From Streptomyces sp. NBC_00659 (lineage in GTDB: Bacteria; Actinomycetota; Actinomycetes; Streptomycetales; Streptomycetaceae), in NCBI RefSeq assembly GCF_036226925.1, contig NZ_CP109031.1, positions 4,960,001 through 5,024,000 on the forward strand: 64,000 nucleotides of DNA, in the 5' to 3' direction. Positions 10,916-40,795 of this stretch are shown piece by piece. A program made the translations under genes and the position numbers. The notes beneath the pieces were generated by a model. That model was given only the letters and a program-made list of their open reading frames with translations, was not told the origin of the DNA and searched no databases. Positions within the stretch are counted from its first letter, which is position 1; the number at the start of each line of letters is the position of its first letter.

Positions 10916-10948
10916 GCTTCATCGGCGCGGTCGGGTAGCGTCAGAGGC

Positions 10949-11296: not shown

Positions 11297-11310
11297 ACCG
11301 GGCCCGCCCG

Positions 11311-11460
11311 CCCCGGGGAATGCCGGGGAATCCTGCGTCCGGGTCCGCGCACCCGGGGAATGCCGGGGAATGTCTGTGGTCCCGGTCCGCCCATCCCGGG
11401 GGAATGCAGGGGGAGTCACTGCGGTCCGGGCCTGCCGTCCCCGGGGGAATGCCCGGAGGC
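11311..11460. repeat. Imperfect tandem repeat of about 43 bp, four copies
   Basis: Four copies begin with CCCGGGG(G)AATGC at 11312, 11352, 11395 and 11440 and share a following TCCGGGTCCGC-like block. They lie between the convergent rhodanese and acyl-CoA dehydrogenase genes. CCCGGG makes each unit partly self-complementary, so the region could terminate transcription in both directions. Confidence 0.8.
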
Positions 11461-11469
11461 CGGGTCCTG

Positions 11470-12603: not shown

Positions 12604-12657
12604 GATCCCGTCCTCCCGCGCACGCACCGGACCAATGACCAGACGGAAAGCCTGATC

Positions 12658-12670
12658 TGACGGTGCGTCA
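12658..12670. promoter_or_regulatory. TGACG-GTG-CGTCA palindrome before acyl-CoA dehydrogenase
   Basis: Perfect 5-bp inverted arms around GTG, 55 bp upstream of the acyl-CoA dehydrogenase GTG and 3 bp from the KstR-like site. On the minus strand it reads TTGACGCACCGTCA, so it could also supply a -35 hexamer (TTGACG). It is either an operator or part of the core promoter. Confidence 0.5.
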
Positions 12671-12673
12671 AGA

Positions 12674-12687
12674 TAGAACAGGTTCTA
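12674..12687. promoter_or_regulatory. KstR-like operator TAGAACAGGTTCTA
   Basis: Fits the published actinobacterial KstR consensus TNNAACNNGTTNNA exactly, including the TAGAAC half-sites. It lies 71 bp upstream of the acyl-CoA dehydrogenase start, in the gap between that gene and paaE. KstR is a TetR-family repressor of cholesterol and steroid catabolism in mycobacteria and rhodococci. Confidence 0.65.
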
Positions 12688-12720
12688 CGAGAAGGGAACG
12701 GCCGACGATCGGCCTCCTTC

Positions 12721-13785: not shown

Positions 13786-14318
13786 CACAGCTCCTTGAAG
13801 TGGTCGAACGGTTCGCGGCAGGACAGACAGCGGCGCAGCGCCTTGCACGCGGTGGAGGAGAAACGGCTGAGCAGTTCGGTGTCGGCCGATCCGCAGGCCG
13901 GGCAGCGGACGGGGTCCAGCTCCGGTTCCGCGCCGGCCGTACGGGTCGGTCCCAGGTCGAGGGCCACCGGCCCGGCGGGACGGTCGCCGCGCGGCGGTGC
14001 TATCCCGAACTCCCGCAGTTTGCGGCGGCCTTCGTCCGAGATGTCGTCGGTCGACCAGGCGGGGCTGAGCACCGTACGCACCAAGACCTCGCGTATGCCA
14101 TGCTCGTGGAGCACCCGCTCGATGTCCATGGACATGGCTTCGACGGCCGGGCAGCCGGTGTAGGTCGGGGTCAGCTCGACCTCGACGCTGTCCGTGCCGC
14201 GGACGTGGACGGCGCGCAGGACACCGAGGTCGTCCAGGGTGAGGACGGGCAGTTCGGGGTCGAGCACGGAGCCTGCCAGCCTGCGCAGTTCCTCCTCCAG
14301 GGCGGTGGTCGTCACCAT
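13785..14318 (-). CDS. paaD: Phenylacetyl-CoA epoxidase-associated protein PaaD
   Basis: Protein of 177 aa of the PaaD/MIP18 (DUF59) family, needed for maturation or stability of the epoxidase, probably iron-sulfur cluster handling. The MIP18-like domain (about 1-100) has VLDPELPVLTLDDLGVLR and TPTYTGCPAVEAMSMDIE with its conserved Cys. The C-terminal zinc-ribbon-like part has CPACGS and CLSCREPFDHFK. The start is the ATG at 14318 (MVTTTALEE), overlapping the end of paaC by 7 bp. The stop overlaps the paaE start. Confidence 0.93.
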   Translation of the reverse strand: MVTTTALEEELRRLAGSVLDPELPVLTLDDLGVLRAVHVRGTDSVEVELTPTYTGCPAVEAMSMDIERVLHEHGIREVLVRTVLSPAWSTDDISDEGRRKLREFGIAPPRGDRPAGPVALDLGPTRTAGAEPELDPVRCPACGSADTELLSRFSSTACKALRRCLSCREPFDHFKEL

Positions 14319-15031
14319 GACGCCCCCGGGTGGCTGCGGTGCAGGTGCTGCATCTCGGCGAGCATCCGCCCGAAGGACTCGGTGTGCAGGCCCTGGCGTC
14401 CGGCGCCGGCCGTCCAGGCCCCGGTCTGCGGGCCTTCGGGGACGGTCAGCGTGGCCCGGCGCAGTGTGGCTTCCACGGACTCCGTCCAGGCGGCCCGGAG
14501 GCCGTCCCAGTCGATGCCGACGCCGTCGAGCGGCTGGAACATCTCGCCGGTGAAGCGCCACAGCGCCTGGCACGCCCGGCTCATCCGCTCGTGACTCTCG
14601 GCCGTGCCGTCGCCGAGGCGCAGGGTCCACTGCTCGGCGTGGTCCTGGTGGTAGGCGACCTCTTTGACGGCCTTGGCGGCCAGGGGAGCGAACTCGCTGT
14701 CCCCGGATGCCAGTTGTGCGTAGAGAAGCCGCTGGTAGGTCGAGAAGTAGAGCTGCCGGGCGATGGTGTGCGCGAAGTCGCCGTTCGACTGCTCGACGAG
14801 CTGGAGGTTGCGGAAGGCGCGCTCCTCGCGGAGATACGCCACCTCGTCCTCGTCACCGGCCATGGACAGCAGGACCCGGGCCTGGCCGAGCAGGTCCAGG
14901 GCGATGTTGGCCAGGGCGACCTCCTCTTCGAGGACGGGCGCGTGGCCGGCCCACTCCCCCAGCCGGTGCGAGAGCACCAGGGCGTCGTCGCCGAGGGCCA
15001 GGGCGGCCGCGGTGTTCACGGTGAGCGTCAC
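14312..15031 (-). CDS. paaC: Phenylacetyl-CoA epoxidase structural subunit PaaC
   Basis: Ferritin-fold subunit of 239 aa that forms a heterodimer with PaaA but usually lacks a working metal site. Typical segments are ALVLSHRLGEWAGHAPVLEEEVALANIALDLLGQAR, SNGDFAHTIARQLYFSTYQ, VKEVAYHQDHAEQWTLRLGDGTAESHERM and, at the C-terminus, LAEMQHLHRSHPGASW. The start is the GTG at 15031, overlapping the paaB TGA as GTGA. Its length matches the family (about 240-250 aa). Confidence 0.95.
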   Translation of the reverse strand: MTLTVNTAAALALGDDALVLSHRLGEWAGHAPVLEEEVALANIALDLLGQARVLLSMAGDEDEVAYLREERAFRNLQLVEQSNGDFAHTIARQLYFSTYQRLLYAQLASGDSEFAPLAAKAVKEVAYHQDHAEQWTLRLGDGTAESHERMSRACQALWRFTGEMFQPLDGVGIDWDGLRAAWTESVEATLRRATLTVPEGPQTGAWTAGAGRQGLHTESFGRMLAEMQHLHRSHPGASW

Positions 15032-15315
15032 AGGTGCTTCACCCCTTCCGGGATCTCGTAGAAGGTCGGGTGCCGGTAGGGCTTGTCGGCGGACGGCTCG
15101 AAGAAGGGGTCCTTCTCGTCGGGCGAGGAGGCCGTGACGGCGGCGGACGGGACGACCCAGATCGACACGCCCTCGCCGCGGCGCGTGTACAGATCGCGGG
15201 CGTTGCGCAGCGCCAGTTCGGCGTCCGGGGCGTGCAGGCTGCCGGCGTGGGTGTGCGAGAGCCCGCGGCGCGAGCGCACGAAGACCTCCCACAGCGGCCA
15301 GTCGGTGTTCGTCAT
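15028..15315 (-). CDS. paaB: Phenylacetyl-CoA epoxidase small subunit PaaB
   Basis: Subunit of 95 aa that bridges PaaAC heterodimers in the epoxidase complex. Recognisable family features are [50 protein letters not shown] and the C-terminal [16 protein letters not shown]. The ATG at 15315 overlaps the paaA TGA, and its own TGA overlaps the paaC GTG. All junctions in this operon are translationally coupled, as expected for a fixed-stoichiometry complex. Confidence 0.95.
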
Positions 15316-16352
15316 GCTCGGGTCGCTCCTGTCTCGCCGGTCGTGCTCGCGGAGCCGCCGGTCCCGCTCGTGTGCTTGCCGGCGTACGCCGCGGCCGCCT
15401 CCCGTACCCAGGCGCCCTCCTCGTGGGCTCGCCGGCGCTGGGTGATCCGCTGGTCGTTGCACGGGCCGTTGCCCTTGAGGACCTCCCAGAACTCCGTCCA
15501 GTCGATGGCGCCGAAGTCGTGGTGCCCCCGCTCCTCGTTCCACACGAGGTCAGGGTCGGGGAGGGTCAGGCCGAGGGACTCGGCCTGGGGGACGGCGATG
15601 TCGACGAAGCGCTGGCGCAGCTCGTCGTTCGAATGGCGCTTGATCTTCCACGCCATCGACTGGGCGGAGTGCGAGGACTCGTCGTCCGGCGGGCCGAACA
15701 TCATCAGGGAGGGCCACCACCAGCGGTCGACCGCGTCCTGCGCCATCGCGTGCTGCTCGGGGGTGCCCTGGCTCAGGGCCAGCAGCAGTTCGTACCCCTG
15801 GCGCTGGTGGAAGGACTCCTCCTTGCACACGCGGACCATGGCGCGCGCGTACGGGCCGTACGAGCAGCGGCACAGGGGGACCTGGTTGGTGATCGCCGCG
15901 CCGTCCACGAGCCAGCCGATGGCGCCGACGTCCGCCCAGGTCAGCGTCGGGTAGTTGAAGATCGACGAGTACTTCTGGCGGCCGGAGTGCAGCTTGTCCA
16001 GCAGTTCGTCGCGGCCGACGCCGAGTGTCTCGGCCGCGCTGTACAGGTACAGCCCGTGTCCTGCCTCGTCCTGGACCTTCGCCATCAGGATCGCCTTGCG
16101 GCGCAGCGAGGGCGCGCGCGTGATCCAGTTGGCCTCGGGCTGCATGCCGATGATCTCGGAGTGGGCGTGCTGCGCGATCTGGCGGACCAGGGTGGAGCGG
16201 TAGGCATCGGGCATCCAGTCGCGGGGCTCGATGCGTTCGTCGGCCGCCACCGCGGCGTCGAAGACGACCTCGTACGCCGCTGTGCGCGCCGCCTCGTCGG
16301 CGGCTTCGTCCGCTTGTGTGCGGGCCGTGTGGTGCGCTGATGCTGTCGCCAT
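15312..16352 (-). CDS. paaA: Phenylacetyl-CoA epoxidase catalytic subunit PaaA
   Basis: Diiron oxygenase subunit of 346 aa that epoxidises the aromatic ring of phenylacetyl-CoA. Iron ligands appear in the ferritin-like pattern: [38 protein letters not shown] (ExxH) and the [32 protein letters not shown] region. [24 protein letters not shown] is the family C-terminal signature. The start is the ATG at 16352 with GAGGGGG shortly before it; the longer upstream frame is antisense to the DUF5819 gene. First gene of paaABCDE. A PaaR-type palindrome lies 28 bp upstream of the start. Confidence 0.96.
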
Positions 16353-16380: not shown

Positions 16381-16397
16381 CCGACCGATCGTTCGGT
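16381..16397. promoter_or_regulatory. PaaR-type TetR operator before paaABCDE
   Basis: Reads CCGACCGATCGTTCGGT, the exact reverse complement of the 17-mer ACCGAACGATCGGTCGG found between paaN and paaH. It is palindromic around CGATCG and lies 28 bp upstream of the paaA start codon, where binding would block transcription. Confidence 0.8.
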
Positions 16398-16442
16398 CCA
16401 TTCGCAACAATGGTCGGTCGAGCGCCGTACGGTGTCAACCGC

Positions 16443-16451
16443 TGTGGATAA
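16443..16451 (-). promoter_or_regulatory. DnaA box variant TTATCCACA
   Basis: TGTGGATAA on the plus strand, i.e. TTATCCACA on the minus strand, a classical DnaA box. It lies in the intergenic region between paaA and the DUF5819 gene. Confidence 0.45.
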
Positions 16452-16614
16452 CCTCATGCGCGCCGGCGTGGCGGTTGTGACCCGCGGGGCTGTGCCGAAG
16501 GTCCGGCTCTGAGTACGGTTCGCCTGCGAACGTCGTGCCGCGGTACGACGTGACGGTACGGTGCCCGCAGTCCGGCGGCCGGAAGTCGGATCCGGGATCG
16601 TGAATCGGGGCGGG

Positions 16615-17838
16615 ATGGACGCGAGGGACGAGGGCTCTGAGCGGGAGCCGGGGTCGGTCGCGCCCGAGGGGGGCGCGCCCGGCGGTGTCACCGGCGGTAC
16701 ACCGCTGCCCGGCCCGCGGCCGGCCGGCGAGTCTGTGACCGGCGAGCGCCCCGCAGGCGATCCGCCGACCCGGGCGGAGGCTTCCCCGGAGTCCGGGGAC
16801 GGGGCGCCCGAGACCACCGGGCCCGACGCGGGCGCACCCGAAGACGACGCATGCACGTCCGCGGAGTCCGGGAGCCCGGGATCCGGGGCTGCCGCTCCCG
16901 GGGAGTCCGAGCGGGGCGCGGGCGAGGTGGTGTTTCCCCAGGAGTCCGAGCTGGCCGAATCCGGGGCTGCCGCTCCCGGGAAGCCCGAGCTGGGCGAATC
17001 CGAGGCGGTGCTGTCCCGGGAGTCCGAACTGGGCGAATCCGAGGCCGTGCTGTCCCGGGAGTCCGAGCCGGGTGCTCCCTCCGTGGGCGCTCCTTCGGGC
17101 TTCGCCGGGGCCGGGGCCGGCGCGTCGGCCTTCCCCGAGAGTCCCGAAGCGGCCGGCTGTCCGGAAGACGGGGCTCCCATGGGCCTCGCGGCCCTGTCTC
17201 TGCGCCATCAGATCGCCGCCGCCCTCGCCCTGGCCGTCGTCGCCGTCGTCGCCTGTGCGCATCTCGGCATGGTCTTCCTGCACGTCGCGCCCTTGAACAC
17301 GGTGACGAAGCAGCACGGCCGCGCGATCGACGACTGGATCTACCCCGAGTTCGAGCAGAACTGGAAGCTCTTCGCCCCCAACCCGTTGCAGCAGAACATC
17401 ACGGTCCAGGTCCGCGCTCTGGCCCGCACGAAGGACGGCACCAGCCGCGAGACCGGCTGGTACGACCTGTCCGCGCTCGACGGCCTGGCCATCGACGGGA
17501 ATCCGCTGCCGAGCCACACCCAGCAGAACGAACTGCGCCGTGCCTGGGACTTCTACGTCGGTACGCACGACGGCGAGAACCGCTCCGTGGGCCTGCGCGG
17601 CGACCTCTCGGAGCGCTATCTGCGCCGTATCGGCGTGCTGCGTCTCGACCGTGAGCATGCGGGCGGCGAGGGCGCTGTCGTCGAACGCGTCCAGTTCCGC
17701 TCCCTCACCACCGACGTGCCGCCTCCCCGGTGGAGCGGCGAGAAGGTGTCCGACCGGCCCGTCGTCCGTGAGCTGCCCTGGTGGGCCGTTCCCGGGAGCG
17801 ACCGCGCGGACGGGCTGACGGAGGCGAGTGCCCGATGA
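16615..17838 (+). CDS. DUF5819 family membrane-anchored protein
   Basis: Protein of about 407 aa of unknown function. Residues about 1-195 are acidic, Gly/Pro/Glu/Ser-rich and probably disordered, with an internal 13-residue repeat ([13 protein letters not shown]). A single transmembrane helix (about 205-228, [23 protein letters not shown]) is followed by the conserved DUF5819 domain with [32 protein letters not shown] and RRAWDFYV. The start is uncertain: ATG 16615 is chosen, GTG 16600 is possible. The stop overlaps the HTTM gene as ATGA. In actinobacteria this family habitually precedes an HTTM protein, so the two probably work together at the membrane. Confidence 0.8.
16987..17064 (+). repeat. 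39-bp direct repeat inside the DUF5819 gene
   Basis: Two adjacent 39-bp copies (16987-17025 and 17026-17064) that differ at two positions and encode 13-residue Glu/Ser-rich repeats in the disordered N-terminal part. Both lie in frame, so copy-number change would not break the gene. Confidence 0.9.
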
Positions 17839-19067
17839 ACCGATTCGCTCCGACGATCGCGCGCGGCATCGCCCGGGTGACCGAGTCCGCCCTCGGCCCG
17901 TACCAGAGCGCCGTGATCCGCATCGGCTTCGCCGCCACCTGGCTGCTGTTCCTGCTGCGCGAGTACCCCCACCGTCAGGAGATGTACGGGCCCGACGCGC
18001 CCTGGAGCTGGGACCTCGCCCGGCAGCTCGTGGCGAGCAATCACGCCTTCACGGTCCTGCTGTGGTCCGACAGCCAGGTGTGGTTCGAGACGGTCTACGC
18101 CGTCGCCGTGCTCTCCGGCGCGCTGCTGCTGGTGGGATGGCGGACCCGCGCGGTGTCCGTGGTCTTCATGATCGGCGTGCTGTCCCTGCAGAACCGCAGC
18201 GTCTTCATCGGGGACGGCGGGGACAACGTCCTCCACCTGATGGCGATCTACCTGGTGTTCACCCGCTGCGCCCAGGTGTGGTCCCTCGACGCGCGGCGGC
18301 ACCGTCTCGCCCGCGAGGCGTACGCGCGGGGCGAGTGGCCCGAGCCCGGCCGAGCGGGCCCCGTTCTGTGGGCGGGGCTCGGGATCGCGCTGGCGCTGGC
18401 GACGGGCGCGGGACGGATCGACGGGGGTGCCCTGGGCGGCTGGCTCACGGTCTTCTGGGGGCTGTGGGCGGTGCAGGGCCTGTGGTGGGCCGTCGGCCGC
18501 TTCGCCCGCACCGCGGAGCCGCGCATCCTGTTGGACGTCGTCGCCAACCTCGTCCACAACGCCGCTCTGATGATCATCATGGCCGAGGCGTGTCTGATCT
18601 ACGCGACCGCGGGCTGGTACAAGATCCAGGGCTCGCGCTGGCAGGACGGCACCGCCGTCTACTACCCGCTCCACCTGGAGTCCTTCTCCCCGTGGCCGGC
18701 GCTGTCCGACCTGATGTCCACGCACGGGGTGATCGTCATGCTCGTGACGTACGGGACGGTCGCCGTGCAGGTCGCCTTCCCCTTCGCCCTGTTCAACCGG
18801 CGGGTCAAGAACGTGCTGCTGGCGGTCATGATGACCGAGCACGCCGTGATCGCCGTGGTCCTCGGGCTGCCGTTCTTCTCGCTCGCGATGATCGCCGCGG
18901 ACGCCGTGTTCCTGCCCACGTCGTTCCTGCGGCGCCTGGGCGGACGGGCGGCACGCGCGCGTGACCGGCTGTTTCCCGGCAGGGGCCCTGCGGTGCCGGG
19001 GCCCCGGGAGCCCGAACCGGGCGTTCCGGAGGAGCCCGGGCACACGCACGTAGGCTTCACCGCATGA
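17835..19067 (+). CDS. HTTM-domain membrane protein (vitamin K-dependent carboxylase-like)
   Basis: Polytopic membrane protein of 410 aa with the HTTM (horizontally transferred transmembrane) domain. The typical first part is SAVIRIGFAATWLLFLLREYPHR, then GWRTRAVSVVFMIGVLSLQNRSVFIGDGGDNVLHLMAIYLVF, and later ATAGWYKIQGSRWQDGTAVYYPLHLESF. About six to eight hydrophobic helices are visible. The family is distantly related to gamma-glutamyl carboxylase, but the activity of this bacterial subgroup is unknown. The ATG at 17835 overlaps the DUF5819 stop, and its own stop overlaps the TrmH gene start: a three-gene coupled operon. Confidence 0.88.
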   Translation: MNRFAPTIARGIARVTESALGPYQSAVIRIGFAATWLLFLLREYPHRQEMYGPDAPWSWDLARQLVASNHAFTVLLWSDSQVWFETVYAVAVLSGALLLVGWRTRAVSVVFMIGVLSLQNRSVFIGDGGDNVLHLMAIYLVFTRCAQVWSLDARRHRLAREAYARGEWPEPGRAGPVLWAGLGIALALATGAGRIDGGALGGWLTVFWGLWAVQGLWWAVGRFARTAEPRILLDVVANLVHNAALMIIMAEACLIYATAGWYKIQGSRWQDGTAVYYPLHLESFSPWPALSDLMSTHGVIVMLVTYGTVAVQVAFPFALFNRRVKNVLLAVMMTEHAVIAVVLGLPFFSLAMIAADAVFLPTSFLRRLGGRAARARDRLFPGRGPAVPGPREPEPGVPEEPGHTHVGFTA

Positions 19068-19813
19068 ACGACCCGGTACGTGTCTGGCGCCAGCTCCGCG
19101 ACGATTCCGTCCTGCTCGACGGCTTCCACGCCCTCAAGCACGCGGTGCGCTTCGGAGCGCGTGTCCCGGTCGCCGTCACGACCGACCGGCCGGCGGTCCT
19201 CGAACTGGCCGGCGAACTCGCCCCCGACGTACGTGCCGCTCTCGACGGGCTGCTGACCGAGATCCCGGAGACGGCGTTCACAGCCCTCGTGGCGCGACCG
19301 CATCCCACCTCGGTGGCGGCGCTCGCCGTACGGCCCTCCCGTGCCGCCAACCTGGAGAGGCTGGCCGGCACGCCGCGCACCGCGCCCGTGGTCGTCCTCG
19401 ACAATCCGCGCAACCTCGGCAACGCGGGAGCGGTGATCCGGCTCGCGGCTGGCTTCGGCGCGACCGGGGTGGTCACGACGGGCACGCTCGACCCCTGGCA
19501 TCCCACGGTCGTACGCGGCGGGGCCGGCCTGCACTTCGCGACCGCCGTGGAGCGGCTGGCGGTGGACGAACTGCCGGCAGGCCCGTTGTTCGCGCTCGAC
19601 CCCGAGGGCGAGGACATCCGGGGGACGAAGCTTCCCGACGACGCCCTGCTCGCCTTCGGCTCGGAGCGCAGCGGGCTGTCCGCCGAACTGCGCTCCCGGG
19701 CCGACCACCTGGTCTCGCTGCCGATGCGCCCCCAGGTCTCCAGCTACAACCTCGCGACCAGTGTGGCCATGACGTTGTTCCACTGGAGCGCCACCGGGGA
19801 CGCACCGGCGTAG
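19064..19813 (+). CDS. TrmH/SpoU-family RNA 2'-O-methyltransferase
   Basis: SPOUT-fold, SAM-dependent RNA methyltransferase of 249 aa. Motif 1 is VVVLDNPRNLGNAGAVIRLAAGFGATGVV, with the conserved N and R. Motif 2 is LLAFGSERSGLS, and motif 3 is LPMRPQVSSYNLATSVAMTLFHW, carrying the knot residues. The N-terminal 85 residues are a family-specific substrate domain. Whether it modifies tRNA or 23S rRNA is not clear. It overlaps the HTTM gene by 4 bp. It is convergent with paaN; a small GACGCC/GGCGTC hairpin lies just after the stop. Confidence 0.9.
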   Translation: MNDPVRVWRQLRDDSVLLDGFHALKHAVRFGARVPVAVTTDRPAVLELAGELAPDVRAALDGLLTEIPETAFTALVARPHPTSVAALAVRPSRAANLERLAGTPRTAPVVVLDNPRNLGNAGAVIRLAAGFGATGVVTTGTLDPWHPTVVRGGAGLHFATAVERLAVDELPAGPLFALDPEGEDIRGTKLPDDALLAFGSERSGLSAELRSRADHLVSLPMRPQVSSYNLATSVAMTLFHWSATGDAPA

Positions 19814-19828
19814 ACGCCCGAAGGCGTC
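19813..19828. terminator. Short hairpin between convergent TrmH gene and paaN
   Basis: GACGCC-CGAA-GGCGTC: a 6-bp stem with a four-base loop directly at the TrmH gene stop and 6 bp from the paaN stop. It is short, so terminator function is tentative. Confidence 0.4.
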
Positions 19829-19833
19829 GTGGC

Positions 19834-21546
19834 TCACGCCTCCCGGCGTACCTCGACCACCCGGAAGCGGTTCGCCACGAACGCCCCGTCGCACAGCGCC
19901 GCGTTGGCCGCGGCGTTGCCGCCCGAGCCGTGGAAGTCCGAGAACGCGGCCGTCTGGTTGACGTAGACCCCGCCTGTGAGGTTCAGGGAGAGCTGGGCGC
20001 ACTCCTCCAGGCAGGCCTCCTGCACCTCGCGCTCGAACGCCTCGTCGGTGGTGTACGCGCCGACGGTCATCGCGCCCTTGTCCCGGGTGGTGCGCCGCAG
20101 AAGCTCCACGGCCTCGGCGGCCGAGTCGACCGCGACGGCGAAGGAGACCGGCCCGAAGCACTCGCTCAGGTAGGCGGCCTCGTCGTCGCTCCCGGCGTTC
20201 TCCCAGTACTTGCGCGCGCCGTCCAGCTTCACGATCAGCGGTGAGCGCACGACGGCACCGGGGAACTCGGGGTTGTCGATCTGCCGTGAGGGCAGGGCCA
20301 CTTCCCCGAGTCCGGCGGCGGCCTCCAGCCGGGCCTTCACGTCCGGGTTCACGATGGCGCCGAGCAGCGCGTTCGCGCGGGCGTCGTCGCCGAGGAGTCC
20401 GCCGACCGACTTCGCGAGATCGGCCACCACCTCGTCGTAGGACTTGTGGCCCTCGTCCGTGGAGATGCCCTCGCGCGGGATCAGCAGGTTCTGCGGGGTG
20501 GTGCACATCTGACCGCTGTAGAGCGACAGGGAGAACGCCAGGTTGGACAGCATCCCCTTGTAGTCGGCGGCCGACTCCACGATCACCGTGTTGACGCCGG
20601 CCTTCTCCGTGTAGACCTGCGCCTGGCGGGCGTTGGCCTCCAGCCAGTCGCCGAAGGCGGTGGAGCCCGTGTAGTCGATGATGCGGATCTCGGGGCGGGT
20701 GGCCAGGGTCTTCGCGATGCCCTCGCCGGGACGCTCGGCGGCCAGCGCCACCAGGTTCGCGTCGAAGCCGGCCTCGGCCAGCACCTCGCGGGCGACCTGC
20801 ACGGTCAGCGCGAGGGGCAGCACCGCGCGCGGGTGGGGCTTCACCAGGACCGCGTTGCCCGTGGCCAGCGAGGCGAACAGGCCCGGATAGCCGTTCCACG
20901 TCGGGAAGGTGTTGCAGCCGATCATCAGCGCGATGCCGCGCGGGACGGGCGTGAACTGCTTGGTGAGCGCGAGGGGATCACGCTTGCCCTGGGGCTTGCT
21001 CCACTCCGCGGTGCCGGGGGTGCGGACCTGCTCCGCATAGGCGTAGGCCACCGCCTCCAGACCGCGGTCCTGCGCGTGCGGGCCGCCCGCCTGGAACGCC
21101 ATCATGAAGGCCTGGCCGCTGGTGTGCATGACCGCGTGCGCGAACTCGTGGGTGCGGTCGCTGATCCGCTTGAGGATCTCCAGACAGACCACCGCGCGCA
21201 TCTCGGCGCCCGCGTCGCGCCAGGCGCGCTGCCCCGCGCGCATGGCGGGAAGCAGCGTGTCGATGTCTGTGTGCGGGTACGTGACGCCCAGCTCGATGCC
21301 GTACGGCGACACCTCGCCCCCGACCCAGTCGTCCGTGCCGGGCTGGCCCAGGTCGAGGCGGTTGCCCAGGAGGGCGTCGAAGGCGGCTTTGCCCTCGGCC
21401 ATGCCCAGGCTGCCGTGCTCGCCGTACGCCTTGGGGTGCTCGGGATGCGGGGACCAGTACGCGCGCGTGCGGATTGTTTCCAGCGCCTGATCCAGGGTGG
21501 GCCGGTGCTGGGAGATCAACTGGTGCGCGGTGAGTTCGGCGGCCAT
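19834..21546 (-). CDS. paaN: Phenylacetate degradation aldehyde dehydrogenase PaaN
   Basis: Enzyme of 570 aa of the aldehyde dehydrogenase superfamily (PaaN family) that oxidises the ring-opened semialdehyde formed from oxepin-CoA. Visible ALDH features are PRGIALMIGCNTFPTWNGYPGLFASLATGNAVLVKPHPRAVLP, the TGSTAFGDWLE NAD-site region, EKAGVNTVIVE with the general-base Glu, and SGQMCTTPQNLLIP with the catalytic Cys. The hydratase domain fused in E. coli PaaZ is absent. The start is the ATG at 21546; the longer frame upstream runs into the divergent promoter. It is divergent from the 3-hydroxyacyl-CoA dehydrogenase gene, with a PaaR-type operator between them. Confidence 0.93.
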   Translation of the reverse strand: MAAELTAHQLISQHRPTLDQALETIRTRAYWSPHPEHPKAYGEHGSLGMAEGKAAFDALLGNRLDLGQPGTDDWVGGEVSPYGIELGVTYPHTDIDTLLPAMRAGQRAWRDAGAEMRAVVCLEILKRISDRTHEFAHAVMHTSGQAFMMAFQAGGPHAQDRGLEAVAYAYAEQVRTPGTAEWSKPQGKRDPLALTKQFTPVPRGIALMIGCNTFPTWNGYPGLFASLATGNAVLVKPHPRAVLPLALTVQVAREVLAEAGFDANLVALAAERPGEGIAKTLATRPEIRIIDYTGSTAFGDWLEANARQAQVYTEKAGVNTVIVESAADYKGMLSNLAFSLSLYSGQMCTTPQNLLIPREGISTDEGHKSYDEVVADLAKSVGGLLGDDARANALLGAIVNPDVKARLEAAAGLGEVALPSRQIDNPEFPGAVVRSPLIVKLDGARKYWENAGSDDEAAYLSECFGPVSFAVAVDSAAEAVELLRRTTRDKGAMTVGAYTTDEAFEREVQEACLEECAQLSLNLTGGVYVNQTAAFSDFHGSGGNAAANAALCDGAFVANRFRVVEVRREA

Positions 21547-21624
21547 CAAGGACCAACTCCTCGTCTCAAGAGCTCCTCGTCGAGCTCGCGAGCTGGGCAG
21601 GAAGGGACAGTCAGAGTTAGAGTA

Positions 21625-21641
21625 ACCGAACGATCGGTCGG
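21625..21641. promoter_or_regulatory. PaaR-type TetR operator between paaN and paaH
   Basis: ACCGAACGATCGGTCGG, identical over 17 bp to the site before paaA. It is placed 53 bp upstream of the 3-hydroxyacyl-CoA dehydrogenase start and 78 bp upstream of paaN, so one bound dimer could control both divergent promoters, including paaR itself. Confidence 0.8.
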
Positions 21642-21662
21642 GACAAGGGGGTCCGCCGCATC

Positions 21663-21671
21663 TGTGGACAA
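21663..21671 (-). promoter_or_regulatory. DnaA box TTGTCCACA (minus strand)
   Basis: TGTGGACAA on the plus strand equals the preferred Streptomyces DnaA box on the minus strand. It lies between the PaaR-type operator and the paaH start codon. Confidence 0.55.
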
Positions 21672-21694
21672 CGCCGTGCGGGAGGATCGCGCAC

Positions 21695-23209
21695 ATGACA
21701 GCACTCGACCTCAGCAGCCCCGTGGCAGTCGTCGGCACCGGCACCATGGGCCAGGGCATCGCCCAGGTCGCGCTGGTGGCGGGCCACCCCGTGCGGCTCT
21801 ACGACGCCGCTCCCGGACGTGCCGCGGCCGCCGCCGAAGCGATCGGCGCCCGGCTCGACCGGCTCGTCGCGAAGGACCGGCTCGCCGGCGCCGACAGGGA
21901 CGCCGCGCGCGCCCGGCTCCAGCCGGCCTCGGATCTCACCGACCTCGCGGACTGCGTGCTCGTCGTCGAGGCGGTGCTCGAAGAACTCGACGTCAAGCAG
22001 CGGCTGTTCGGCGAGCTCGAGGACATCGTCGGGGACGACTGCCTGCTGGCCACCAACACCTCCTCGCTGTCCGTCACGGCCATCGGCGGCGCGCTGCGAA
22101 ATCCGGGCCGGCTCGTCGGGCTGCACTTCTTCAACCCGGCGCCGCTGCTGCCGCTCGTGGAGGTCGTCTCCGGGTTCGCGACCGACGTCACGTCGGCCAC
22201 GCGCGCGTACGAGACGGCCCGCGCCTGGGGCAAGACGCCCGTCGCCTGCGCGGACACGCCCGGTTTCATCGTCAACCGCATCGCGCGGCCCTTCTACGCC
22301 GAGGCCTTCGCGGTCCACGAGTCCCAGGCGGCCGACCCCGCCACCATCGACGCGGTCCTGCGCGAGTCCGGCGGTTTCCGGATGGGCGCCTTCGAACTCA
22401 CCGACCTGATCGGCCAGGACGTCAACGAGTCCGTCACGCACTCCGTGTGGCGGTCCTTCTTCCAGGACGTGCGCTTCACGCCCTCGCTCGCCCAGCGACG
22501 ACTCGTCGAGGCGGGCCGCTTCGGCCGCAAGACGGGCCACGGCTGGTACGACTACGGGGACGGCGCCGAACCCTCCGAGCCGCACACGGCGGAGAAGGCG
22601 CAGCCGCCCGCGTACGTCGTCGCCGAGGGCGACCTGGGCCCGGCCGCCGACGTTCTCGCCCTGATCCGTGAGGCGGGCATCCAGGTCCGGGAGGACGAGG
22701 AGGACCACGGCACGCGCCTGGTGCTGCCGAGCGGCGGCCAGCTCGTCCTCGTCGACGGCCAGACCTCGGTCGAGTTCCGCGACGTCGTCTACTTCGACCT
22801 CGCGCTCGACTACCGCAAGGCCACCCGGATCGCCCTGTCGGCGTCCCAGGACACCGCTCCCCAGACGCTCTCCGAGGCCATCGGTCTCTTCCAGGCGCTG
22901 GGTAAGGACGTCAGTGTGATCGGGGACTGCCCCGGCATGATCGTCGCCCGCACGGTGGCCCGGATCGTCGACCTCGCGTACGACGCGGTGGCCAAGGGCG
23001 TGGCCACCGAGGAGGACATCGACACCGCGATGCGCCTCGGCGTCAACTACCCCCTCGGCCCCTTCGAGTGGAGCCGCAGGCTCGGTGTGAACTGGTCGTA
23101 CGACGTCCTGGACGAACTACACGTGCGCGATCCCTCCGGCCGCTACGCCCCGTCGCTCGCGCTCTACCGCCACGCGTACGCCAACGAGAAGCGGGAGGGC
23201 ACCCAGTGA
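21695..23209 (+). CDS. paaH: 3-hydroxyacyl-CoA dehydrogenase (PaaH type)
   Basis: NAD-dependent dehydrogenase of 504 aa that oxidises a 3-hydroxyacyl-CoA, here most likely 3-hydroxyadipyl-CoA of the phenylacetate pathway. The Rossmann motif VVGTGTMGQGIAQVALVAGHPVRLYD is at the N-terminus. TNTSSLSVTAIGG and GLHFFNPAPLLPLVEVV with the catalytic His follow. TPGFIVNRIARPFYAEAF opens the first C-terminal helical domain. A linker domain and a second C-terminal 3HCDH domain (about 395-500, CPGMIVARTVARIVDLAYDAV...LGVNYPLGPFEW) complete the double-domain form typical of PaaH. GGAGG lies 10 nt before the ATG. The stop overlaps the paaR GTG. Confidence 0.92.
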   Translation: MTALDLSSPVAVVGTGTMGQGIAQVALVAGHPVRLYDAAPGRAAAAAEAIGARLDRLVAKDRLAGADRDAARARLQPASDLTDLADCVLVVEAVLEELDVKQRLFGELEDIVGDDCLLATNTSSLSVTAIGGALRNPGRLVGLHFFNPAPLLPLVEVVSGFATDVTSATRAYETARAWGKTPVACADTPGFIVNRIARPFYAEAFAVHESQAADPATIDAVLRESGGFRMGAFELTDLIGQDVNESVTHSVWRSFFQDVRFTPSLAQRRLVEAGRFGRKTGHGWYDYGDGAEPSEPHTAEKAQPPAYVVAEGDLGPAADVLALIREAGIQVREDEEDHGTRLVLPSGGQLVLVDGQTSVEFRDVVYFDLALDYRKATRIALSASQDTAPQTLSEAIGLFQALGKDVSVIGDCPGMIVARTVARIVDLAYDAVAKGVATEEDIDTAMRLGVNYPLGPFEWSRRLGVNWSYDVLDELHVRDPSGRYAPSLALYRHAYANEKREGTQ

Positions 23210-23796
23210 CCACCGCCAAACGGGACACGTACACGCCCGAGACGCTGCTCTCCGTCGCCGTCCAGGTCTTCAACGAACGCGGCTACGACGGCACCTCCAT
23301 GGAGCACCTCTCCAAGGCGGCCGGCATCTCCAAGTCGTCGATATACCACCATGTCTCGGGCAAGGAGGAGCTGCTGCGGCGCGCGGTGAGCCGGGCGCTG
23401 GACGGCCTCTTCGAGATCCTCGACGAGGAGCACGCGCGCGTGGGACGTGCCGTGCAGCGACTGGAGTACGTGGTGCGGCGCATGGTCGAGGTGCTCACCT
23501 CGGAGCTGCCCTACGTGACGCTGCTCCTGCGGGTGCGCGGCAACACGGACACCGAGCGGTGGGCCCTGGAACGGCGCCGCGACTTCGACCACAGGGTCGC
23601 CGAGCTCCTGAAGGCAGCGGCCGCCGACGGGGACGTACGCGGCGACGTGGAGGTCCGGCTCGCGACCCGGCTGGTCTTCGGAATGATCAACTCGCTCGTG
23701 GAGTGGTACCGCCCCGACGCACGGGGCATGGCCGCGCAGGAAGTGGCCGACGCCGTGGTGGTGCTGGTCTTCGGAGGGCTCCGGCAGGAGCCCTGA
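23206..23796 (+). CDS. paaR: TetR-family regulator of the phenylacetate genes
   Basis: Repressor of 196 aa. The N-terminal TetR helix-turn-helix (about 10-60) has LLSVAVQVFNERGYDGTSMEHLSKAAGISKSSIYHHVSGKEELL. The C-terminal ligand domain (about 70-190) ends LVEWYRPDARGMAAQEVADAVVVLVFGGL. It is translationally coupled to paaH by a GTGA overlap, so it is probably autoregulated through the 17-bp palindrome upstream of paaH. The effector is likely a CoA thioester such as phenylacetyl-CoA, as for other PaaR proteins; that is family knowledge, not visible here. The same palindrome before paaA and a near copy before bkdA suggest three targets. Confidence 0.88.
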   Translation: MTTAKRDTYTPETLLSVAVQVFNERGYDGTSMEHLSKAAGISKSSIYHHVSGKEELLRRAVSRALDGLFEILDEEHARVGRAVQRLEYVVRRMVEVLTSELPYVTLLLRVRGNTDTERWALERRRDFDHRVAELLKAAAADGDVRGDVEVRLATRLVFGMINSLVEWYRPDARGMAAQEVADAVVVLVFGGLRQEP

Positions 23797-23818
23797 GGGC
23801 CCAGGAGGGCCGGTGGCG

Positions 23819-24328
23819 TCAGGCCTCCGGCTCCAGGTCCTCCTCCTCGAAGACCAGCAGTGTCCTGCTGCTGAGCACCTCCGGGATGGCCTGGAGCCGG
23901 GTGAGCACCAGTTCGCGCAGCGCCCGGTTGTCCGGCGTGTGCACCAGCAGAAGCACGTCGAAGTCGCCGCCCACCAGGGCGATGTGCGAGGCCCCGGGCA
24001 GCACCCTCAGCCGCTCCCGCACCGTGCGCCAGGAGTTCTGCACGATCTTGAGGGTGATGTACGCCGAGGTGCCCTGTCCCGCGCGTTCGTGGTCGACGCG
24101 CGCCCCGAAGCCGCGGATCACACCGTCCTCGATGAGCCGGTTGATCCGCGCGTAGGCGTTTGCCCGCGAGACATGGACCCGCTCGGCCACGGAACGTATG
24201 GAGGCACGGCCGTCCGCCTGCAGCATGTGCAGGATGTCCTGGTCGATCGCGTCGAGCGGACGGGCGGGCGGCACGGGCGGCACGGAGGGTCCGGCCTCCG
24301 GCGGCTCGGCCATTTGTTCAGGTGCCAT
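23819..24328 (-). CDS. bkdR: Lrp/AsnC-family transcriptional regulator BkdR
   Basis: Regulator of 169 aa, divergent from the bkdABC operon. The winged HTH (about 20-80) has LDAIDQDILHMLQADGRASIRSVAERVHVSRANAYARINRLIEDGVIRGF. The C-terminal RAM (ACT-like) effector domain (about 85-165) has IALVGGDFDVLLLVHTPDNRALRELVLTRLQAIPEV. The start is the ATG at 24328, with GGGAGG upstream; an ATG at 24349 is in frame but would place that site inside the gene. The S. coelicolor gene in this position, bkdR, is reported to regulate the adjacent branched-chain dehydrogenase operon and affect development (recall). It is convergent with paaR. Confidence 0.9.
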   Translation of the reverse strand: MAPEQMAEPPEAGPSVPPVPPARPLDAIDQDILHMLQADGRASIRSVAERVHVSRANAYARINRLIEDGVIRGFGARVDHERAGQGTSAYITLKIVQNSWRTVRERLRVLPGASHIALVGGDFDVLLLVHTPDNRALRELVLTRLQAIPEVLSSRTLLVFEEEDLEPEA

Positions 24329-24386
24329 GTCCCCCCGCCTCCCTACCATGGACGTACTGCATCCATCTCAGGCTGCGCAGAACCGT

Positions 24387-24395
24387 TTGTCCACA
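24387..24395 (+). promoter_or_regulatory. DnaA box TTGTCCACA
   Basis: Exact TTGTCCACA in the bkdR-bkdA divergent intergenic region, 35 bp left of the PaaR-like palindrome. Confidence 0.55.
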
Positions 24396-24429
24396 GCCTG
24401 GCGGCGCCTGTAGCCAAAATGTGCCGACG

Positions 24430-24446
24430 ACCGAACAATCGGTAGG
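24430..24446. promoter_or_regulatory. PaaR-like palindrome before bkdABC
   Basis: ACCGAACAATCGGTAGG matches the two paa operators at 15 of 17 positions, keeping ACCGA and TCGGT half-sites. It lies 56 bp upstream of the bkdA start, in the bkdR-bkdA divergent region, so bkdABC may respond to PaaR as well as BkdR. Confidence 0.65.
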
Positions 24447-24502: not shown

Positions 24503-25672
24503 ATGACGGTCATGGAGCAGCGAGGGGCCTACCGGCCCACGCCGCCGCCCGCCTGGCAGCCCCGCACCGACCCCGCGCCGTTGCTGCCCGACGCGCTGCC
24601 CCACCGCGTCCTCGGCACCGACGCGGCCGCCAAGGTCGATCCGGCCCTGCTGCGCCGCCTGCACACGGAACTGGTGCGTGGCCGCCGGTACAACGTCCAG
24701 GCCACCGCGCTCACCAAGCAGGGCCGTCTCGCCGTGTACCCGTCCAGCACCGGACAGGAGGCCTGCGAGGTCGCCGCCGCGCTCGTGCTGGAGGAGCGCG
24801 ACTGGCTCTTCCCCAGCTACCGCGACACCCTCGCCGCCGTCGCCCGCGGCCTCGACCCCGTCCAGGCACTCACCCTCCTGCGCGGCGACTGGCACACTGG
24901 CTACGACCCGCACGAGCACCGGGTCGCGCCCCTGTCCACCCCCCTGGCGACCCAGCTCCCGCACGCCGTGGGCCTCGCGCACGCCGCCCGCCTCAAGGGC
25001 GACGACGTGGTCGCGCTCGCCCTGGTCGGTGACGGCGGCACCAGCGAGGGCGACTTCCACGAAGCGCTGAACTTCGCCGCGGTGTGGCAGGCGCCCGTCG
25101 TCTTCCTCGTGCAGAACAACGGCTTCGCCATCTCCGTCCCGCTCGCCAAGCAGACCGCCGCCCCGTCGCTGGCCCACAAGGCCGTCGGCTACGGGATGCC
25201 GGGCCGTCTGGTCGACGGCAACGACGCGGTGGCCGTGCACCAGGTCCTGAGCGAGGCCATCGCCCACGCGCGCGCGGGCGGCGGTCCCACCCTCGTCGAG
25301 GCCGTGACGTACCGCATCGACGCGCACACCAACGCCGACGACGCCACCCGCTACCGGGGGGACTCCGAGGTCGAGACCTGGCGCGGCCACGACCCCATCG
25401 TGCTTCTGGAGCGCGAGCTGACCGAGCGCGGTCTGCTCGACGAGGCAGCTCTCCAGGAGGTGCGCGACGGCGCCGAGGCGATGGCCGCGGACCTGCGTGA
25501 GCGCATGAACCAGGACCCGGTGCTCGACCCCATGGATCTGTTCGCCCATGTGTACGCACAACCCACTCCTCAACTGCTTGAGCAGGAGAGCCAGCTGAGA
25601 GCGGAGCTGGACGCCGAGGCGGACGGCACGCTCGGAGCGGGCCCGCACGGCCCGGAAGGAGCCGGGCGATGA
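24503..25672 (+). CDS. bkdA: 2-oxoacid dehydrogenase E1 alpha subunit (first cluster)
   Basis: Alpha subunit (389 aa) of the thiamine-diphosphate-dependent E1 of a branched-chain (or aromatic) 2-oxoacid dehydrogenase. The ThDP motif GDGGTSEGDFHEALNFAAVWQAPVVFLVQNN is complete. YPSSTGQEACEVAAALVL and LFPSYRDTLAAVARGLDP are family blocks. ATRYRGDSEVETWRGHDPIVLLE is near the regulatory-loop region of E1 alpha. AGGAGGTG precedes the ATG at 24503. The stop overlaps the bkdB start. A cluster 11 kb downstream encodes a second, longer E1 alpha. Substrate preference cannot be read from the sequence; a role with phenylpyruvate is possible because of the PaaR-like operator. Confidence 0.92.
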   Translation: MTVMEQRGAYRPTPPPAWQPRTDPAPLLPDALPHRVLGTDAAAKVDPALLRRLHTELVRGRRYNVQATALTKQGRLAVYPSSTGQEACEVAAALVLEERDWLFPSYRDTLAAVARGLDPVQALTLLRGDWHTGYDPHEHRVAPLSTPLATQLPHAVGLAHAARLKGDDVVALALVGDGGTSEGDFHEALNFAAVWQAPVVFLVQNNGFAISVPLAKQTAAPSLAHKAVGYGMPGRLVDGNDAVAVHQVLSEAIAHARAGGGPTLVEAVTYRIDAHTNADDATRYRGDSEVETWRGHDPIVLLERELTERGLLDEAALQEVRDGAEAMAADLRERMNQDPVLDPMDLFAHVYAQPTPQLLEQESQLRAELDAEADGTLGAGPHGPEGAGR

Positions 25673-26673
25673 CCACGGTTGCCCTCAAACCGGCCACCAT
25701 GGCGCAGGCGCTCGGGCGCGCCCTGCGCGACGCCATGGCCGCCGACCCGGCCGTCCATGTCCTGGGCGAGGACGTCGGCACCCTCGGCGGCGTCTTCCGG
25801 GTCACCGACGGGCTCGCCAAGGAGTTCGGCGACGACCGCTGCACGGACACCCCGCTCGCCGAGGCGGGCATCCTCGGCGCGGCGGTCGGCATGGCCATGT
25901 ACGGCCTGCGGCCGGTCGTGGAGATGCAGTTCGACGCGTTCGCCTACCCGGCGTTCGAGCAGCTGATCTCGCACGTGGCGAAGATGCGCAACCGCACACG
26001 GGGCGCCATGCCCCTGCCCATCACGATCCGCGTCCCCTACGGCGGCGGCATCGGCGGCGTCGAGCACCACAGCGACTCGTCCGAGGCGTACTACATGGCG
26101 ACCCCGGGCCTGCACGTCGTCATGCCCGCGACCGTGTCCGACGCCTACGGACTGCTGCGGGAGGCCATCGCCTCGGACGACCCGGTGGTCTTCCTGGAGC
26201 CCAAGAGGCTGTACTGGTCGAAGGATTCGTGGAACCCGGACGAGCCGCCGGCCGTTGAGCCGATAGGCCGCGCGGTGGTGCGGCGCTCGGGCCGGAGCGC
26301 CACGCTGATCACCTACGGGCCGTCCGTGCCCGTCTGCCTCGAAGCCGCCGAGGCGGCCCGGGCCGAGGGCTGGGACCTCGAAGTCGTCGACCTGCGCTCG
26401 CTGGTGCCGTTCGACGACGAGACGGTCGCGGCATCGGTGCGGCGGACCGGACGAGCGGTCGTCGTGCACGAGTCGGGCGGGTTCGGAGGACCGGGCGGGG
26501 AGATCGCGGCCCGCGTCACGGAGCGCTGCTTCCACCACCTGGAGGCGCCGGTGCTGCGCGTCGCCGGGTTCGACATCCCGTATCCGCCGCCGATGCTGGA
26601 GCGGCACCACCTGCCCGGCGTCGACCGGATCCTGGACGCCGTGGGACGTCTGCAATGGGAGGCGCAGAGCTGA
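25669..26673 (+). CDS. bkdB: 2-oxoacid dehydrogenase E1 beta subunit (first cluster)
   Basis: Beta subunit (334 aa) of the E1 heterotetramer. Typical sequence features are VHVLGEDVGTLGGVFRVTDGL with the Glu that activates ThDP, DTPLAEAGILGAAVGMAMYGLRPVVEMQFDAF, RVPYGGGIGGVEHHSDSSEAYY, and the C-terminal VVVHESGGFGGPGGEIAARVTERCF. Overlaps bkdA as ATGA and bkdC as TGATG. It is closely similar to the second-cluster E1 beta in this window, so the two arose by duplication. Confidence 0.94.
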   Translation: MTTVALKPATMAQALGRALRDAMAADPAVHVLGEDVGTLGGVFRVTDGLAKEFGDDRCTDTPLAEAGILGAAVGMAMYGLRPVVEMQFDAFAYPAFEQLISHVAKMRNRTRGAMPLPITIRVPYGGGIGGVEHHSDSSEAYYMATPGLHVVMPATVSDAYGLLREAIASDDPVVFLEPKRLYWSKDSWNPDEPPAVEPIGRAVVRRSGRSATLITYGPSVPVCLEAAEAARAEGWDLEVVDLRSLVPFDDETVAASVRRTGRAVVVHESGGFGGPGGEIAARVTERCFHHLEAPVLRVAGFDIPYPPPMLERHHLPGVDRILDAVGRLQWEAQS

Positions 26674-28199
26674 TGGCACAGGTGCTGGAGTTCAAGCTCC
26701 CCGACCTCGGGGAGGGCCTCACCGAGGCGGAGATCGTCCGCTGGCTGGTGGAGGTCGGTGACGTCGTCGCCGTCGACCAACTCGTCGTCGAGGTCGAGAC
26801 GGCCAAGGCGATGGTCGAGGTCCCCTGCCCCTACGGCGGTGTGGTCACCGCCCGCTTCGGCGAGGAGGGCACGGAACTGCCCGTGGGGGCACCGCTGCTG
26901 ACCGTCGCCGTGGGTGCCCCTGCCGAGGACGGCGGGACCGGCGAGAACGAGCGGAGCGACGAGGGCTCCGGGAACGTGCTGGTGGGATACGGCACGGGAG
27001 CGCCCCCGGCGCGGCGCCGGAGGGTGCGCCCCTCCGGCGCCGCCACCGGAGGACCGGCCGGGGTACCGTCCCCGGCGGGCACGGGTGCCTCGCCCGCCCG
27101 GCCCGCGCAGGGCCGCCCCGAACCCGTCGCCGCCGTACCGCCGGACCCGGCGGGCATGGCGCGGACCGCTCACAACGGCGTCACCCCCTCGCGGGGCGAC
27201 GGCCCGGTGCCGGTCATCTCGCCCCTCGTGCGACGGCTCGCCCGGGAGAACGGCGTGGACCTGAGGGAGCTGGAGGGCTCCGGTCCCGAGGGACTCATCC
27301 TGCGGGCGGACGTCGAGTACGCGCTGCGCGCGGCGGCCACCGGACGGCTGCGGTCGTCCGCCACGCCGGAGTCGCGCCCTGCGGCGGCCGGACCCGGTGC
27401 TCCCGTCACGGAGCCCGCGTACGAGGGCCTGCCCGGCCAGATGACCTCCTACGCGGACATCGTGTCGGTGGTGCCCGGTGGGTCCGGCGTTTCCCGGGGC
27501 ACGTCCCCGGAGGGTGTCCGGGTGCCCCTCCGGGGTGTCCGCGGTGCCGTCGCCGACAAGCTCTCGCGCAGCCGGCGCGAGATCCCGGACGCGACCTGCT
27601 GGGTGGACGCCGATGCGACGGAGCTCATGCAGGCGCGCAGGGCGATGAACGCGGCCGGCGGCCCGAAGATCTCCCTGCTGGCACTGCTGGCCCGGATCTG
27701 CACCGCGGCGCTGGCCCGTTTCCCCGAGCTCAACTCGACGGTCGACATGGACGCCCGCGAGATCGTCCGGCTCGGCCAGGTGCACCTGGGCTTCGCGGCC
27801 CAGACCGAGCGCGGGCTCGTCGTCCCCGTGGTGCGGGACGCGCACGCACGGGACGCGGAAGGGCTGAGCGCGGAGTTCGGCCGGCTGACCGAGGCGGCCC
27901 GGACCGGGACGCTGACGCCCGCGGACCTCACGGGCGGCACCTTCACGCTGAACAACTACGGCGTGTTCGGTGTCGACGGCTCCACGCCGATCATCAACCA
28001 CCCCGAGGCGGCCATGCTCGGCGTCGGCCGCATCATCCCCAAGCCCTGGGTCCACCAGGGCGAGCTGGCGGTGCGTCAGGTCGTCCAGCTCTCGCTCTCC
28101 TTCGACCACCGGGTCTGCGACGGCGGTACGGCGGGCGGCTTCCTGCGGTATGTGGCGGACTGCGTGGAGCAACCGGCGGTGCTGCTGCGGACTCTGTAG
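26673..28199 (+). CDS. bkdC: 2-oxoacid dehydrogenase E2 (dihydrolipoyl acyltransferase), first cluster
   Basis: Core acyltransferase of 508 aa. The lipoyl domain (about 1-78) has the modified Lys in EVETAKAMVEV. A Pro/Ala/Gly-rich linker follows, then the E3-binding domain (about 175-215, ISPLVRRLARENGVDLRELEGSGPEGLILRADVEYAL). A second linker leads to the catalytic domain (about 285-508), ending in SFDHRVCDGGTAGGFL with the catalytic His and Asp. There is a single lipoyl domain. No E3 gene is nearby, so dihydrolipoyl dehydrogenase comes from elsewhere. Confidence 0.93.
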   Translation: MAQVLEFKLPDLGEGLTEAEIVRWLVEVGDVVAVDQLVVEVETAKAMVEVPCPYGGVVTARFGEEGTELPVGAPLLTVAVGAPAEDGGTGENERSDEGSGNVLVGYGTGAPPARRRRVRPSGAATGGPAGVPSPAGTGASPARPAQGRPEPVAAVPPDPAGMARTAHNGVTPSRGDGPVPVISPLVRRLARENGVDLRELEGSGPEGLILRADVEYALRAAATGRLRSSATPESRPAAAGPGAPVTEPAYEGLPGQMTSYADIVSVVPGGSGVSRGTSPEGVRVPLRGVRGAVADKLSRSRREIPDATCWVDADATELMQARRAMNAAGGPKISLLALLARICTAALARFPELNSTVDMDAREIVRLGQVHLGFAAQTERGLVVPVVRDAHARDAEGLSAEFGRLTEAARTGTLTPADLTGGTFTLNNYGVFGVDGSTPIINHPEAAMLGVGRIIPKPWVHQGELAVRQVVQLSLSFDHRVCDGGTAGGFLRYVADCVEQPAVLLRTL

Positions 28200-39175: not shown

Positions 39176-39301
39176 CGGCATTGCTCCAGGTGAACTCTTC
39201 CCGAGCTCGGGGTGGCCGGGATAACGTGCCGGTGTTCCGGCCCCCTGCAAGGCTGTGACCAGTGCTGTGACCAGCGACTGTTCCGATCTGCTCGATCTAG
39301 T

Positions 39302-39335: not shown

Positions 39336-39360
39336 ATAAAAATCGCAGGTCAGGAGGGGT

Positions 39361-40793: not shown

Positions 40794-40795
40794 CC

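Follow-up and report, generated by a model that had tools for sequence, protein, structure and literature searches.

The 64,000-nucleotide stretch of Streptomyces sp. NBC_00659 analyzed here (contig NZ_CP109031.1, positions 4,960,001 to 5,024,000; hereafter the window, with coordinates counted from its first letter) raises the question of why a 2-oxoacid dehydrogenase operon, bkdABC, carries an operator-like sequence shared with the neighboring genes for phenylacetate degradation (paa). The answer we favor, and consider probably correct, is that an operator for the TetR-family regulator PaaR makes bkdABC a member of the PaaR regulon, in addition to its control by BkdR, and that the Bkd complex would feed phenylpyruvate into the pathway as phenylacetyl-CoA. 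Scanning the window for a 17-bp sequence located the following three sites:

16381..16397, minus strand: PaaR-like operator 1, exact 17-mer, 28 bp upstream of the paaA ATG
21625..21641, plus strand: PaaR-like operator 2, exact 17-mer, between paaN and paaH-paaR
24430..24446, plus strand: PaaR-like operator 3, the 17-mer with two mismatches, one inside its 14-bp core and one outside (core ACCGAACAATCGGT, 24430-24443), in the spacer between bkdR and bkdA, 56 bp before the bkdA ATG

An earlier sequence-only reading of this DNA had given these same positions, including the two mismatches before bkdA, and had described the sites as palindromic, intergenic and close to start codons, with the TetR gene in their middle. 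The positions and the layout are as described; the bkdA palindrome is less perfect, having CA rather than CG at its center. Since a divergent Lrp/AsnC-type gene (bkdR, 23819-24349), which that reading left unmentioned, lies between the TetR gene and bkdA, the third operator belongs to the bkdR-bkdA spacer, and BkdR is a second regulator encoded at the bkdA promoter. The window holds seven matches to the 17-mer at up to three mismatches, some of them overlapping or opposite-strand readings of the three sites, against 0.58 expected, and 0 of 100 shuffles reached seven. The whole-genome scan called for by the sequence-only reading found the 14-bp core ACCGAACGATCGGT exactly twice in the 9.66-Mb genome (at paaA and between paaN and paaH) and with one mismatch four times (at bkdA and at genome positions 1,161,438, 1,730,573, and 3,103,252); four of these six best sites lie at paa or bkd promoters. 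Allowing up to two mismatches gave 68 strand-matches genome-wide versus 8 for a reversed control, totals in which palindromic sites may be counted on both strands. The regulon had been drawn with three promoters, and the site at 1,161,438 adds a fourth outside the window, located 37 bp upstream of the ATG of paaK and 3.8 Mb from the window sites. The site at 1,730,573 (L004, 1501-1514) is flanked by an acyl-CoA synthetase-like frame and by another TetR gene and is possibly a related operator of that neighboring regulator, while the one at 3,103,252 falls within a long open frame resembling a kinase.

The bkdA site proved to be strongly conserved. Hereafter, "the family" is the family of this genome in the search tool, and site scores are counted against a 14-position pattern. 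Among 80 close loci fetched with the TetR protein, 49 of which hold paaA, the bkdR-bkdA spacer carried ACCGAACAATCGGT in all 80, the paaN-paaH core was exact in 79, and the paaA promoter fitted the pattern at 14 of 14 positions in 46 of the 49. In a sample spread evenly over the class, all 19 Streptomyces genomes (this one included) had the bkdA site, down to 68% TetR identity. Thirty further genomes of the family were hand-picked to include PaaR-less ones; 24 of them encode bkdR and 23 provided a usable bkdR-bkdA spacer, with the exact 14-mer present in 21 and the two site-less spacers (G213 and G229) both coming from genus g85. The site was thus found in 40 of 42 spacers of the family, representing 13 genera, and was kept in G203, whose TetR match is 4.6 kb from bkdR. 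Besides the 14-mer, the 40 site-bearing spacers have no 8-mer or longer in common, and 17 of 142 aligned columns outside the site are invariant; the two site-less spacers were excluded from this alignment, and the invariance of the 14 site columns follows from that choice of rows. Elsewhere in the regulon the sequence is looser: paaA sites scored at least 13/14 in 22 of 26 family loci, only four of them with the window's own letters, and of 30 genomes, 18 have a site scoring 13/14 or more before paaK. Chance matching as the origin of the sites was rejected on the basis of their rarity in the genome and their recurrence in all 80 close loci and 40 family spacers. The same conservation gives good support to the earlier proposal of one PaaR regulon that would reach bkdABC. 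Upstream of the site, two blocks are kept in the bkdA spacer, one reading TTGTCCAC and one resembling TAGCCAAA. They may represent -35 and -10 elements, in which case the operator would probably coincide with the bkdA transcription start or follow it closely.

With regard to the protein that recognizes the site, its form, ACCGA-N4-TCGGT, is that of tested PaaR operators. The operator of Burkholderia cenocepacia PaaR, ACCGACCGGTCGGTT, has been tested in reporter fusions, and binding in electrophoretic mobility shift assays and release by phenylacetyl-CoA have been shown, according to the passages available from PMC9493321, and the inverted repeats at the paa promoters of the window match this form. 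A putative PaaR site in S. pristinaespiralis is given as AACGA-N4-TCGGT in the portion of PMC10933834 consulted. In other actinomycete families, 11 stretches around PaaR-like TetR genes were read, and in 8 of them a paa or tetR gene has a neighboring site scoring 13/14 or higher (present in L215, L217, L219, and L222-L226; absent from L220, L221, and L227). Ownership by a different protein, either BkdR or the promoter as one of its elements, with a merely fortuitous likeness to PaaR operators, would be in keeping with the location of the site inside the bkdR-bkdA spacer and with its being more invariant than the paaA sites. We consider it very improbable, because the form is that of the tested operators, the same letters recur at another promoter in paa clusters, and no site of 13/14 was present in nine bkdR-bkdA spacers taken from beyond the genus and family, the best being 12/14 (L112 and L114 were dropped from this set, having no bkdA match). 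Four of the nine genomes have a PaaR match (G026, G087, G162, and G017), so that the bkd site tracks the PaaR-linked locus of this family and not BkdR as such, and BkdR is unlikely to be the owner of the motif.

The genes served by these sites were assigned as follows:

12721..16352, minus strand: paaABCDE, phenylacetyl-CoA epoxidase operon (NCBIfam and Pfam)
15312-16352, minus strand: paaA, ATG at 16352 (TIGR02156, 527 bits)
about 15037, minus strand: paaB (Pfam PaaB)
about 14312, minus strand: paaC (TIGR02158, 250 bits)
about 13848, minus strand: paaD (Pfam Zn_ribbon_PaaD)
12721-13785, minus strand: paaE (TIGR02160, 419 bits, just below the cut-off of 420.8)
19834..21546, minus strand: paaN of the PaaN_2 type, start at 21546 (TIGR02288, 973 bits)
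21695..23209, plus strand: paaH, 3-hydroxyacyl-CoA dehydrogenase, start at 21695 (PRK08268, 641 bits, above cut-off; TIGR02279, 581 bits, below the cut-off of 669)
23206..23796, plus strand: paaR, TetR-family regulator (Pfam TetR_N and TetR_C_24; Protein Data Bank (PDB) entry 2iai, 329 bits)
23819..24349, minus strand: bkdR, Lrp/AsnC regulator divergent from bkdA (Pfam AsnC_trans_reg and HTH_AsnC-type)
24503..25672, plus strand: bkdA, E1-alpha (TIGR03181, 420 bits, above cut-off; PDB E1-alpha relatives)
25669..26673, plus strand: bkdB, E1-beta (57% identical to its second-cluster counterpart)
26655..28199, plus strand: bkdC, E2 acyltransferase (2-oxoacid dehydrogenase E2 families, all below curated cut-offs)

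The paaR gene shares 4 bases with the end of paaH, with paaN and paaABCDE within 11 kb, and its TetR_N DNA-binding domain scored 58.1 bits against a cut-off of 24. The solved structure closest to the protein is 2iai, SCO3833 of S. coelicolor, which is titled "putative transcriptional regulator SCO3833". The adjacent SCO3832 is named bkdR in the literature excerpts seen, and its equivalence to the bkdR of the window rests on position beside the SCO3833 relative and not on alignment. The bkdABC genes form a three-gene operon with E1 and E2 subunits, the E2 matches all falling below curated cut-offs, and the sole E1-alpha label above cut-off for bkdA is a pyruvate dehydrogenase family. The start of bkdA was read as the ATG at 24503, with AGGAGG at 24490; a GTG at 24446, which overlaps the operator site and begins the longer frame used in the family search, is a less likely start. 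Two further E1/E2 sets are present in the genome. One, at 39255-43243 of the window, is 40%, 57%, and 35% identical to bkdA, bkdB, and bkdC, and the window scan showed no PaaR-like site there; the other is closer, with an E1-alpha identity of 66-67% (L250, G000:C1:1302500-1322400, 9376-12850), and no site of at least 13/14 was found in the 20-kb stretch around it. In an alignment of the E1 pocket, from which two of nine rows dropped out at stop signs, the position of Phe66 of the Thermus enzyme is occupied by Val in bkdA and by Leu in the second cluster. The comparison was given no weight.

Physical linkage of bkd and paa genes was also found on other branches of E1-alpha. In G223, of genus g85, a run of genes in one orientation continues after bkdA, bkdB, and bkdC with paaN, a thiolase gene, an enoyl-CoA hydratase gene, paaH, and paaABC, and the stretch after this operon-like run holds paaD, paaE, and paaK. 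Upstream of the run (L253, 2640-8701), Pfam matches identify a PucR-type regulator, a cytochrome P450, and a ferredoxin-reductase-like protein, which suggests a wider aromatic catabolic cluster. Family f31 has a close bkdA in 15 of 120 genomes, and bkdABC adjoins paa genes in 11 of the 15; these 11 loci contain PaaZ (11), paaA (10), paaH (10), and a PaaR-type TetR gene (11, the one of L299 being in the next stretch). No paa genes were seen at the remaining four f31 loci (L303, L306, L308, and L311), apart from a lone hydratase match in L311, and L303 is short. The paa clusters of two f31 genomes, G101 and G192, carry the exact bkd-type operator, ACCGAACAATCGGT, before a gene for a metabolite/H+ symporter-like transporter (L326, 9141-9154; L330, 11708-11721). 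In family f15, a PaaZ-like gene with 58-59% identity to that of G148 lies next to bkdABC in four of eight loci, comprising four of the five loci of genus g30 (the fifth ends 2.7 kb past bkdC) and none of the three others. A tree of 55 E1-alpha proteins placed the family of Streptomyces, genus g85, and f31 together with f15 on separate branches, so that the association arose more than once or moved around; in this tree the second-cluster outgroup sits on a very long branch, L163 is not included, and 22 rows fall in no group. These observations raise the possibility, which we put forward only tentatively, that some actinobacterial Bkd complexes are physiologically phenylpyruvate (aryl 2-oxoacid) dehydrogenases, making phenylacetyl-CoA directly from the keto acid that phenylalanine yields, linked to paa on at least three E1-alpha branches (in the family of Streptomyces by a PaaR operator fixed in the bkdA promoter), and perhaps the main source of phenylacetyl-CoA in some f31 lineages.

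The sequence-only reading had further suggested that such an enzyme would remove the need for phenylacetate-CoA ligase. The genome does encode this ligase, PaaK (TIGR02155, 718.7 bits; cut-off 646.3), behind the PaaR-like site described above, and the idea that this organism must use a ligase-free route was rejected. Replacement of PaaK by BkdABC as the source of phenylacetyl-CoA might be read from f31, where 7 of the 11 bkd-linked paa clusters have no paaK in the roughly 40 kb read (37 kb in G460), the search being confined to these stretches; the seven genomes are G456, G513, G445, G460, G474, G503, and G429. However, two of six f31 clusters without adjoining bkd also have no paaK, and its presence in 4 of 11 versus 4 of 6 is no real contrast, so the f31 clusters do not establish replacement; among the six comparison clusters, G174 and G192 have bkdA elsewhere and the G174 stretch stops at a contig end, and G166 was excluded because its TetR match is at a contig end with the paa genes elsewhere near bkd. 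Moreover, PaaK was found in 30 of 36 family genomes searched, and it lies inside the bkd-paa run of G223. We therefore regard replacement as improbable.

The co-occurrence of PaaR, paa and bkd was examined across the family, in which 240 of 247 genomes have PaaR at E ≤ 1e-40. Four of the seven PaaR-less genomes (G199, G208, G211, and G221) also have no PaaA and no close bkdA, only paralogues of 38-43% identity, and the other three (G223, G225, and G229) keep PaaA. The fate of the paa operators in these three is mixed: the paaA promoters of G223 and G229 fall short of 13/14 (best scores 11 and 12), and G225, an assembly of 800 contigs, retains two 13/14 sites, one at paaA and the other between paaN and paaK. 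In G208 (L212), bkdR is kept as an orphan regulator, and the 19 kb read yielded neither bkdABC nor paa genes; having no bkdA there, this genome is uninformative about decay of the site after natural loss.

Several observations weigh against the inclusion of bkdABC in the PaaR regulon as a phenylpyruvate-handling enzyme. The operator before bkd is more strictly invariant than those of paaA or paaK, a difference for which PaaR binding alone offers no obvious explanation, and the bkd site may have a second function. Genome G213 has PaaR beside bkdR and no bkdA site, so linkage of the two regulators does not by itself bring the site, and the bkdR-bkdA spacers examined outside the family all score below 13/14, even where PaaR exists. 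G196, with paaA and a TetR match and no close bkdA, is a counter-example to co-occurrence, and bkdR-bkdA occurs without a PaaR match in several genomes of genera outside the family. No aminotransferase gene was present among the annotated recurrent neighbors of f31 bkd. Finally, a published study of bkdR, as far as its accessible text goes, links BkdR to branched-chain amino acid metabolism. The last point, together with the two further E1-alpha paralogues in the genome, as would be expected with overlapping roles, is what one would see if the bkdA site were indeed a PaaR operator, with the enzyme acting only on branched 2-oxoacids, PaaR tuning acyl-CoA supply or sensing other acyl-CoAs, and the paa linkage reflecting amino-acid catabolism in general. 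We judge this unlikely, as neither the second bkd cluster nor the 20 kb around the third E1 (at 13/14) has a PaaR-like site, and a close bkdA is present in so few f31 genomes, yet adjoins paa genes in most of them. In S. albus, deletion of bkdR left the valine-degradation genes without major change in expression, as reported in the part of the study seen, so the valine route may have controls besides BkdR.

Returning to the reading in which PaaR controls bkdABC, we propose that ACCGANCGNTCGGT would be the operator of the TetR repressor PaaR (23206-23796), which would repress paaABCDE, paaN, paaH-paaR, the distant paaK, and bkdABC, and that binding of phenylacetyl-CoA to PaaR would lead to derepression, by analogy with characterized PaaR proteins. 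The bkdABC operon would then be under two regulators, the branched-chain amino acid regulator BkdR and PaaR. Because the known phenylacetate pathway contains no 2-oxoacid dehydrogenase step, the natural place for Bkd would be upstream, where oxidative decarboxylation of phenylpyruvate derived from phenylalanine, alongside that of branched 2-oxoacids, would give phenylacetyl-CoA. This is the simplest role for BkdABC, and it would create two PaaR-controlled entries into the pathway, phenylalanine via Bkd and free phenylacetate via PaaK. This role was also that suggested by the sequence-only reading; the bkd-paa linkage on other E1-alpha branches and a proposed precedent in pristinamycin biosynthesis (see below) speak for it, and its enzymatic part is a prediction. 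Polyketides and fatty acids are primed by branched acyl-CoAs, and with dual control of Bkd the supply of these precursors would be tied to the breakdown of aromatic compounds. In S. avermitilis, the cluster needed for the branched starters of avermectin is the other one, bkdFGH, which would be in line with bkdABC having another main role.

If correct, this assignment would provide SCO3833 (structure 2iai) with a probable function and target set, would add a second, aromatic input to a Bkd locus that is described in Streptomyces as branched-chain, and would offer a route, open to experimental test, by which phenylalanine could give phenylacetyl-CoA, which serves as a precursor for phenylglycine antibiotics according to the passages seen of PMC7089894. 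PaaR control of paa in Streptomyces is itself already published: PaaR of S. pristinaespiralis (Zhao 2015) is described in passages of PMC10933834 and PMC7089894 as a TetR repressor of the paa genes, a likeness by description that extends to its putative site, and a survey (PMC13186573, seen in part) reports that PaaR is conserved in Streptomyces gene context. What those S. pristinaespiralis passages do not name is bkdABC as a target, and no mention of bkd under PaaR was found in the open-licence literature searched, as far as its accessible text goes. The B. cenocepacia PaaR, likened here by description, has an operator that fits the pattern and phenylacetyl-CoA as its effector, but only paa promoters are named as its targets in the passages of PMC9493321; according to the same passages, PaaR of Thermus thermophilus also responds to phenylacetyl-CoA, with a different consensus, CNAACGNNCGTTNG. 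The BkdR-bkdABC locus of S. coelicolor (SCO3832 and SCO3831-3829, bkdA2B2C2) has the same gene neighbors and names, but is described, in the text available, as a branched-chain system with no PaaR input named. For the proposed reaction, the nearest parallel is PglB/PglC of S. pristinaespiralis, which differs in belonging to a biosynthetic operon under PapR2 and is likened by description only: in the passages of PMC7089894, it is proposed to act in pristinamycin biosynthesis as a pyruvate dehydrogenase-like complex converting phenylpyruvate to phenylacetyl-CoA.

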